Source: Chryseobacterium gleum (lineage in GTDB: Bacteria > Bacteroidota > Bacteroidia > Flavobacteriales_D > UBA2798). From it: a stretch of 34,828 nt of DNA. The notes beneath the pieces were generated by a model. It searched no databases, was not told where the DNA came from, and saw only the letters and a program-made list of their open reading frames with translations. A program made the translations under genes and the position numbers. The stretch lies in NCBI GenBank assembly GCA_945865695.1, contig CAMBFX010000012.1, forward strand, positions 1 to 34,828, in the 5' to 3' direction. Positions 7,491-15,467 of this stretch are shown piece after piece. Every line of letters begins with the position of its first letter. The stretch's first letter is position 1.

Positions 7491-7537
7491 CCTCCCCTTG
7501 ATAAGGGGAGGTGGCTCGTCTTCGAGACGGAGGGGTC
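7491..7537 (+). repeat. Cloverleaf-family palindromic repeat, copy R1
   Basis: Hairpin 1 (CCTCCCCTT/AAGGGGAGG, loop GAT, 7491-7511) is followed by hairpin 2 (GTCT/AGAC, loop TCG) and then GAGGGGTC. This is the order seen in R2 and R3. The 5' half of the outer stem is missing. The element directly abuts the inverted repeat at 7538-7571. Confidence 0.7.
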
Positions 7538-12216: not shown

Positions 12217-12239
12217 TATTTTTAGTTATCGGTTTTTCG

Positions 12240-12446
12240 TTTGAAATATATTGAACAATAATTTCAACAACTATTTTATTTTACACAACTCCAATTCTCC
12301 CCTTGTCTGAGGGGAGATGTCGAGTCTTCGAGACAGAGGGGTCTTTTGTTTGAAATATATTGCACAATAATTTCGACAACTATAATACAAAAACGTACCC
12401 CAATCCTCCCCTTATCTTAGGGGAGGTGCCCGCAGGGCGGAGGGGT
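12240..12446 (+). repeat. Two tandem ~109-bp units, each carrying a cloverleaf palindrome (R2, R3)
   Basis: Each unit opens with nearly the same ~35-bp AT-rich leader (starts 12240 and 12349; TTTGAAATATATTG then A/CACAATAATTTC) and ends in a palindromic element: R2 at 12288-12342 and R3 at 12397-12446. In each element an outer 5-bp stem (ACTCC or ACCCC with GGGGT) encloses hairpin 1 (CTCCCC.../...GGGGAG) and hairpin 2. Hairpin 2 is GTCT-TCG-AGAC in R2 and GCCC-GCA-GGGC in R3, so both sides changed together. R3 ends 1 bp from the stop codon of the adjacent minus-strand gene. Confidence 0.8.
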
Positions 12447-14606: not shown

Positions 14607-14649
14607 AAAACTTTTGAAGGCTCTGCGAGGTGGCAGGGCCTTTTTGATT
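14607..14649 (+). terminator. Terminator hairpin, left copy of a 43-bp direct repeat (DR1)
   Basis: GGCTCTGC and GCAGGGCC (14619-14626, 14633-14640) form an 8-bp stem with one T-G pair and loop GAGGTG, followed by TTTTT. The whole 43 bp recurs at 15425-15467 with one difference (GCAGGGCC to GCGGGGCC). Confidence 0.8.
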
Positions 14650-14674
14650 TATAATTTACATTAGAATTAATATG

Positions 14675-14741
14675 GACTCACCCCTGTCAAACGAAGTTTG
14701 ACTTCCCCCTCTCTTGAAAGAGAGGGGGCAGGGGGTGAGTC
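14675..14741 (-). repeat. Cloverleaf-family palindromic repeat, copy R4 (67 bp)
   Basis: The outer stem GACTCACCCCTG/CAGGGGGTGAGTC encloses two hairpins: GTCAAAC/GTTTGAC (loop GAA) and CCCCCTCTCT/AGAGAGGGGG (loop TGAA). On the minus strand the order matches R1-R3: GC-rich hairpin, variable hairpin, closing GGGGT. R6 is the same length. Confidence 0.85.
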
Positions 14742-14850
14742 ACGAAAATAAAATGATTTTTTACCTCAATAATTTTCAGGTGCTATCAACATGATACTAT
14801 TCAATTTTAAATATTATTTTGACTTGCTTTCTCAAATTACAAAATAATTA

Positions 14851-14858
14851 TATTTTTG
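14851..14858 (+). promoter_or_regulatory. Putative -7 box of the DUF559 nuclease gene
   Basis: TATTTTTG lies 5 nt before the ATG at 14864, the same box and spacing as at ispG. It supports the 14864 start over the in-frame ATG at 14819. Confidence 0.5.
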
Positions 14859-14863
14859 CCTCC

Positions 14864-15256
14864 ATGAGTAATTATATAGAAATACTTCAACGCTCCCGTT
14901 CACTTAGAAAAAATCAAACACTTGAAGAAAGAGTTGTTTGGGAAATAGTTCGAAGTCGTAGGTTGATGAATTTGAAATTTACAAGACAACTTCCAATTAT
15001 ATACAATCGAATGAAAACATTGAATTATTATATTGTTGATTTCTATTGCCACGAAAAAAAATTGGTACTTGAAATAGATGGTAAAATTCATGATTTTCAA
15101 AAAGAATATGACCGAGAAAGAGAATCAATTATTGTTGATTTTGGATTAACTATTATCCGTATTAAAAATGAAGAAACTAAAGATAAAAATGAGTTGAAAA
15201 AGAAACTGATTGAGTTAATTAGTAAATTGGACTCACCCCTGTCAAACGAAGTTTGA
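14864..15256 (+). CDS. DUF559 (Vsr-like, PD-(D/E)XK fold) endonuclease-domain protein
   Basis: From the ATG at 14864 the product has 130 residues, usual for stand-alone DUF559 proteins, and begins with the family pattern RSRSLRKNQTLEERVVWEIV. An upstream ATG at 14819 would add 15 unlike residues. Core motifs are present: LKFTRQLPI, YYIVDFYCHEKKLVLEIDGK (D59, E70, D72 as candidate metal-binding residues) and a final beta strand with GLTIIRIKNEE. The segment after RQLPI carries ~8 extra residues (IYNRMKTL) compared with the usual spacing. Family members are distant relatives of the Vsr mismatch endonuclease; their role is unestablished. The last eight codons (DSPLSNEV) and the stop are made of repeat R5 sequence, so the original C-terminus may be altered. 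Confidence 0.85.
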   Translation: MSNYIEILQRSRSLRKNQTLEERVVWEIVRSRRLMNLKFTRQLPIIYNRMKTLNYYIVDFYCHEKKLVLEIDGKIHDFQKEYDRERESIIVDFGLTIIRIKNEETKDKNELKKKLIELISKLDSPLSNEV

Positions 15257-15276
15257 CTTTTGCCTCTCTCGAGAGA
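15230..15276 (-). repeat. Cloverleaf-family palindromic repeat, truncated copy R5
   Basis: The first 28 bp are identical to R4 (outer arm plus the GTCAAAC/GTTTGAC hairpin). The second hairpin is reduced to TCTCTCGAGAGA and the other outer arm is lost. The nuclease stop codon (15254-15256) lies in the first hairpin. Confidence 0.8.
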
Positions 15277-15326
15277 AACTGAATAAGTTCTATTTTAACA
15301 AGAAAGAAAAATGTATTTGTTTTTTT

Positions 15327-15393
15327 GACTCACCCCTGTCGATCGTAGGTCGACTTTCCCCTCTCTTTCAAGAGAGGGGGCAGGGGGTGAGTC
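15327..15393 (-). repeat. Cloverleaf-family palindromic repeat, copy R6 (67 bp)
   Basis: Same length and outer stem as R4. The variable hairpin is GTCGATC/GGTCGAC (loop GTA), with changes on both arms that keep pairing. The GC-rich hairpin has loop TTCA, the reverse complement of the R4 loop TGAA. R4 and R6 are both followed by ACGAAAA. Confidence 0.85.
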
Positions 15394-15424
15394 ACGAAAA
15401 CATTTACATTGTCAAGTTCCAATC

Positions 15425-15467
15425 AAAACTTTTGAAGGCTCTGCGAGGTGGCGGGGCCTTTTTGATT
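15425..15467 (+). terminator. Terminator hairpin, right copy of the 43-bp direct repeat (DR2)
   Basis: Same stem-loop and T-run as DR1, with one base change in the stem that turns a mismatch-free T-A pair into a T-G pair. No gene on this strand ends close by apart from the nuclease. Confidence 0.75.

Follow-up and report, generated by a model that had tools for sequence, protein, structure and literature searches.

Why does a small nuclease gene of the DUF559 family lie embedded among copies of a palindromic repeat in Chryseobacterium gleum, and are the gene and the repeat parts of one system? The locus is located in a contig stretch of 34,828 nucleotides, which was analysed as a whole (the window). 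A preliminary description had taken REP elements and their RAYT transposases as a precedent and suggested that DUF559 could process or spread the repeat family; as checks, it had proposed counting the repeat copies genome-wide and looking for enrichment near DUF559 genes and for co-variation of the two sequences. Based on the comparison of solo DUF559 loci from several bacterial phyla, we consider it probable that the DUF559 gene and its flanking repeats, which are read here as intrastrand triplex motifs (ITMs), constitute a compact mobile module, an analogue of REP/RAYT in which a non-homologous nuclease acts on the ITMs.

Table 1. Features of the window with their positions, strand and the evidence for each (ITM, intrastrand triplex motif)
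Feature	Position	Strand	Evidence
R1, solo ITM, CCCCTT family	7491-7536	+	ITM detector, genome pattern search
R2, solo ITM, CCCCTT family	12296-12342	+	ITM detector, genome pattern search
R3, solo ITM, CCCCTT family	12405-12446	+	ITM detector, genome pattern search
T1, left copy of 43-nt direct repeat, terminator-like hairpin	14607-14649	+	98% identical to T2
R4, full palindromic element	14675-14741	+	triplex-type core at 14707-14740
DUF559 (PF04480) Vsr-like nuclease gene, 130 aa	14864-15256	+	Pfam E=1.3e-26
R5, truncated copy of R4-type element	15230-15276	+	89% identical to R4 over 47 nt
R6, second full element, 89% identical to R4	15327-15393	+	triplex-type core at 15359-15392
T2, right copy of 43-nt direct repeat	15425-15467	+	identity to T1, copy count

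The DUF559 block and the identity of its repeats

The gene (coding codons at 14864-15253, with the stop codon ending at 15256) and its surroundings are arranged as the preliminary description had stated: the full element R4 lies upstream, with 122 bp between it and the start codon, the truncated R5 overlaps the 3' end, where it encodes the C-terminal residues (..SPLSNEV) and the stop codon, R6 begins 70 bp downstream, and all three share one orientation, so that the copies around the gene are direct and not inverted. The entire block is bounded by T1 and T2, which were absent from the rest of the 3.34-Mb genome when up to three mismatches were allowed. R4 consists of an outer 10-bp stem (GACTCACCCC/GGGGTGAGTC), a short hairpin (GTCAAACGAAGTTTGAC) and a long hairpin (CCCCCTCTC-loop-GAGAGGGGG), and the Watson-Crick fold that was predicted for R4 and R6 (-46 kcal/mol each) is a three-stem, i.e., three-way, junction. 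Judging from their sequence, the window repeats fit the ITM, which is called TM_ECO in E. coli and is composed of a hairpin and a third G-rich strand. In this motif, the hairpin S1-loop-S2 is followed by S3, which can associate with S2 in antiparallel orientation (G on G-C, T or A on A-T), and triplex formation in solution was demonstrated for TM_ECO (PMC4666352). Because of this layout, the three-stem palindrome that had been described is retained as one possible fold only, beside duplex and triplex alternatives. Read as an ITM, R4 is CCCCCTCTC-TTGAAA-GAGAGGGGG-CAG-GGGGTGAGTC, which is near E. coli TM type B; the type B core, CCCTCTCCC-TGT-GGGAGAGGG-CCG-GGGTGAGGG, closely resembles R4/R6 (PMC4666352). 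The PIT elements/TM_ECO that were characterised by Holder et al. (2015) share the S1-loop-S2-loop-S3 layout, the doublets and the strain-variable sites with the repeats studied here, but were published without an associated enzyme, and the authors found no mobility gene near the motifs (PMC4666352). Repeats of this kind are known from hundreds of bacterial genomes, where their sites are unstable (PMC4666352).

For the search, a script (the ITM detector) required, in this order, a C-rich S1, a complementary G-rich S2 and a mirror-type third strand S3; it was built after the window and the published motif had been seen, and the controls were run with the identical detector. Over the 34.8-kb window, it returned exactly five matches, R1, R2, R3, R4 and R6, with a score of 16/16, whereas shuffled locus DNA (905 kb) gave no match. 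A detector restricted to Watson-Crick three-way junctions, which was also tried, missed most of the related elements, and the ITM reading, in which the third strand mirrors S2, was adopted instead. In other Bacteroidota ITMs, a short hairpin often intervenes between S2 and S3. Rickettsia palindromic elements and CGTC-tagged REPs are comparable as in-frame palindromes in genes and in that no transposase is known for them, but they represent another sequence class with a CGTC tag and an AT-starting stem (PMC3733652); the identity of the CGTC-REP class with ITMs was rejected because the sequences differ.

The relatives of the repeat that had been placed near 7491, 12288 and 12397 exist and belong to the same structural class, but not to the same sequence family as R4/R6: R1-R3 belong to a CCCCTT..AGGGGAG family, members of which flank the DUF559 genes found on contigs 79, 110 and 28. 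The genome-wide count gave 2.5 copies of the R4/R6 family, all of them at this block, and 52 places of the CCCCTT family (0 in the reversed-pattern control), nine of them at a distance of no more than 1 kb from a DUF559 gene (p=2e-13). The source genome has five DUF559 loci, four of which have such repeats on both sides, and no ITM was found at the locus C107; its DUF559 genes fall into two clades, each with its own ITM family. At positions 12231-12446 of the window, a 44-nt sequence and an ITM are duplicated in tandem (109 bp), the two ITMs being R2 and R3. Tandem arrays of DUF559-plus-repeat units were observed at L001 (C110) and L004 (C28), where contigs end inside the arrays and the assembly may therefore hide copies.

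Linkage and co-variation of DUF559 and ITMs

The loci that were tested with one detector comprised 40 from other Flavobacteriales, 80 named ones from a GTDB scan and 16 from plasmid and phage records, and the final sample consisted of 134 solo DUF559 loci, mostly from Bacteroidota but also from Acidobacteria, Patescibacteria, Proteobacteria, Cyanobacteria and Deinococcota. DUF559 genes and ITMs were physically linked: an ITM was present within 500 bp at 113 of the 134 loci compared with 24 of 619 control ORFs from the same loci, and ITMs on both sides were found at 75 of the loci and at none of the control ORFs. The ITM density was 1.9 per kb near DUF559 vs. 0.025 per kb elsewhere (77x), and the linkage was stable over three detector settings, two of which were relaxed. 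In a detector-free test, the upstream flank resembled the downstream flank in 51 of 73 named loci vs. 20 of 478 ORFs (p=6e-38). Throughout, the p-values overstate independence, since many loci come from related species. The linkage was also specific; for a second small accessory family in the same order, 23S_rRNA_IVP (PF05635), an ITM was found in 0 of 30 cases compared with 30 of 43 for DUF559. The repeats of the two-sided loci were mostly inverted, with 47 of 72 in the (+,-) and 10 in the (-,+) arrangement (together 57/72). ITM-positive loci were found in Acidobacteria, Patescibacteria, Sphingomonas, Sphingobium, Sinorhizobium, Azospirillum, Methylobacterium, Neisseria, E. coli, Photobacterium, Deinococcus and Synechocystis, while the same detector gave no ITM at the DUF559 loci of Parageobacillus and of a P. 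aeruginosa plasmid.

Several side observations were made in this sample. In Photobacterium sp. GJ3 (L310, 3388-4970), 18 ITMs, mostly in alternating orientation and BIME-like, lie directly downstream of the DUF559 gene. The locus L127, which is labelled as a Rickettsiales MAG, has 71-97% protein identity and synteny with Marinoscillum (L118) and is probably a mis-binned Bacteroidota contig. NZ_CP141089.1 (4.9 Mb) and NZ_CP119142.1 (2.2 Mb) are labelled as plasmids and are apparently chromosomes (E. coli and N. gonorrhoeae). Genes of PF05635 occur up to ten times per genome, and other, unrelated repeats sometimes flank L379, L384, L387, L397 and L406.

The sequences of the repeat and the nuclease co-vary, as ITM similarity increased with DUF559 similarity (Mantel rho 0.33, 0/999 permutations). 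When only cross-phylum pairs with within-phylum permutation were used, rho was 0.343 vs. a permutation maximum of 0.338 (0/1999), a comparison in which shared ancestry partly remains. Among 113 loci, L062 was closest to the window both in its protein and in its ITM, and the second closest protein was that of Synechocystis. A passive association, in which DUF559 would be a chance cargo at ITMs that serve as transcription terminators or as a landing zone, could account for the many solo ITMs without DUF559, such as most of the CCCCTT places mentioned above. Against it stand the control ORFs (4% with an ITM on any side, 0% on both), the PF05635 result, the co-variation and the in-frame modules described below, and we regard it as highly improbable.

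In random 20-kb pieces of Flavobacteriales DNA, only two ITMs were found in 1.54 Mb, and the density in DUF559-positive vs. DUF559-negative Flavobacteriales was one in 780 kb vs. one in 759 kb, although this comparison is underpowered. Since ITMs are scarce and equally so in genomes with and without DUF559, spreading throughout the genome is not a general feature, and the ITM of Flavobacteriales is more like a module end than a genome-wide repeat. The proposal that DUF559 spreads its repeats therefore finds support as joint mobility but not as a general genome-wide spread. The enrichment, the co-variation and the joint mobility lend strong support to the underlying idea of a link between DUF559 and a palindromic family like that between RAYTs and REPs.

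Occupied, empty and in-frame sites

The gene and its repeats were present or absent together at individual sites. Three states of the site behind bioA were seen among the species of one flavobacterial genus: two species have neither gene nor repeat there, others have an ITM pair, and two have ITM-DUF559-ITM; at a second site, the module was present in two genomes and DUF559 was not found in ten other genomes examined. In leuS of one species, ITM-DUF559-ITM is inserted in frame, the termini of the insert being the outer ITM arms, whereas a congener is empty and has the short loop VEGHEAK instead. Moreover, in-frame modules were found inside or beside Eco57I, N6_Mtase, Methylase_S and type ISP domains, DUF559 being located inside Eco57I domains and beside those of HsdM/HsdS and type ISP. 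The Eco57I domain of two proteins is split by DUF559, and a Bacteroides finegoldii homologue matches the joined flanks without interruption. Because the empty alleles of leuS and Eco57I are without any ITM, the ITMs arrived with the gene. On the strength of these allele comparisons, the DUF559 gene and the ITMs move together, in-frame insertions included. The leuS modules are located at 9480-10153 of L040 (G117) and 9790-10250 of L078 (G030) and adjoin the editing-domain motif FTTRPDT; the congener G024 is without a module. Those in restriction-modification ORFs (Eco57I/TaqI-like, HsdM, HsdS, type ISP) are at L091, L101, L105, L107, L111, L113, L116, L132, L139, L142 and L145, and a target preference for defence genes is a possible reason for them.

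The presence of ITM doublets without DUF559 varies among E. coli strains; five pairs are inverted and REPIN-like, and at two doublet insertions the local sequence was replaced. A published TM_ECO copy of MG1655 (1,351,204-1,351,239; PMC4666352) lies in the gap between fabI and ycjD, which is a DUF559 gene. As an empty-site test, ycjD was unsuitable, since its alternative allele carries the eef operon. Evolution experiments with Legionella pneumophila are reported to have found three repeated transposase/DUF559 segments as recombination hotspots (PMC12308824). Insertion sequences with TIR/TSD have the inverted terminal repeats in common with most two-sided loci, those of R4/R6 being direct, but their short target-site duplication is not matched by the DUF559 modules. 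No consistent target-site duplication was detected, and long direct repeats outside the outermost ITMs, comparable to T1 and T2, were found in only 3 of 86 loci; a long target duplication was therefore dropped as a rule.

These sites also bear on homing as the only process. DUF559 would then be a free-standing homing endonuclease that targets a resident ITM pair, the gene would enter between the arms of the doublet by break repair and the ITMs would spread otherwise. This would agree with the closest solved functional relative, the homing endonuclease I-Bth0305I, and with the doublets of E. coli and the bioA site, which share the inverted layout that is seen around DUF559. It is made rather unlikely by the leuS and Eco57I empty alleles, which have no ITM that could have served as a target, and by the near absence of ITMs elsewhere in most DUF559-carrying Flavobacteriales.

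The nuclease and a proposed route of mobility

Nucleases of the DUF559 family are widespread, and hardly any function is known for them. The window protein matched the Pfam profile with 93 bits (curated cut-off 20.6), its AlphaFold model had a pLDDT of 89.5, and the Foldseek matches were 3hrl (a gonococcal DUF559 protein), the catalytic domain of I-Bth0305I (3r3p; E=5.9e-4, TMt 0.70; hmmsearch profile E=2.2e-4) and then PvuRts1I and AbaSI. In the family alignment, E, D, ExDG, H and D are nearly invariant; E22, D59 and D83 are invariant and H76 nearly so, which makes them candidates for the E, D, H, D catalytic residues of EDxHD homing endonucleases. The EDxHD homing endonuclease I-Bth0305I has the same Vsr-like catalytic fold and is likewise a selfish-gene nuclease, but it is a long multi-domain phage intron enzyme, whereas solo DUF559 lacks an additional DNA-binding domain and brings its own palindromic ends. 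Enzymes of the PD-(D/E)XK superfamily hydrolyse DNA without a covalent intermediate; an enzyme of this type therefore cannot transpose DNA alone, and mobility would need host repair or replication.

YcjD was predicted to be a Vsr-related PD-(D/E)XK nuclease by 2005 (PMC1189080). More recently, VsrA of Caulobacter, itself a DUF559 protein and a member of the Vsr/PD-(D/E)XK superfamily, as is Vsr, was found to cause DNA damage when a cytosine methylase is absent; its proposed task is mismatch nicking at deaminated methylcytosine, and no repeats were reported with it (PMC12907096). The earlier statement that DUF559 has no established role is thus slightly outdated. VsrA acts in a VSP-like setting (PMC12907096), which, together with the Vsr fold of DUF559 and the instability of E. 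coli ITM loci (PMC4666352), would be in line with a guarding role, i.e., DUF559 cutting or removing harmful secondary structures or mismatches at ITMs in a Vsr-like repair, with adjacency arising from co-transfer or selection near substrates and not from mobility. However, two-sided ITMs, in-frame insertions and tandem ITM-DUF559 arrays would be left unexplained, and ITMs are too rare elsewhere for much guarding, which renders this role quite improbable.

For the mobile module that we favour, REP/REPIN and RAYT (TnpA_REP) offer the nearest comparison, as short palindromes flank a single small nuclease gene and there are gene-less inverted doublets and intergenic solo copies. Using the ITM detector, the same layout was found here, with the nuclease gene flanked by its repeats and gene-less inverted doublets. 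The two systems differ in the enzyme, which is an HUH tyrosine (Y1) transposase in RAYT and a Vsr-fold nuclease here, and in the repeat, as REPs carry a GTAG tag and the DUF559 repeat is a hairpin plus third strand. No HUH tyrosine transposase signature was found in the window protein, DUF559 being its sole match among Pfam profiles and its fold Vsr-like, and the GTAG tag is absent at the feet of the R4/R6 hairpins. The module, of approximately 0.5-0.8 kb, may accordingly be likened to the 'REPtrons' of REP/RAYT, built on a non-homologous enzyme. Its ITMs would serve both as ends and as recognition sites; DUF559, as a Vsr-fold hydrolytic nuclease near the EDxHD homing endonucleases, would recognise the folded or duplex ITM and nick or cut there, and host repair or replication would copy the ITM-bounded DNA to a new site. 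Such copying could give rise to complete modules, to REPIN-like ITM pairs without the gene and to single ITMs. For the mobility as such, we infer a homing-like route in preference to others.

Since DUF559 is, across many bacterial phyla, nearly always flanked by ITMs and the gene and repeats move as a unit, it is the first good candidate for spreading ITMs. In titles, abstracts and selected passages of the searched literature that names DUF559, PF04480 or ycjD, we found no link to ITM repeats, and in the literature searched on ITMs no mobility gene was reported near the motifs. It may be, with the chances about even, that DUF559-ITM modules are a distinct pan-bacterial mobile class that moves itself by means of its own triplex-forming ends and is the source of the PIT/TM repeats in E. 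coli, Neisseria and cyanobacteria. If this is true, REP/RAYT and IS/MITE would be joined by a third system of repeat and nuclease. The leuS and restriction-modification modules illustrate how small nuclease domains come to be embedded in unrelated proteins, and the link between DUF559 and ITMs gives each of them a testable role, in E. coli K-12 via ycjD.
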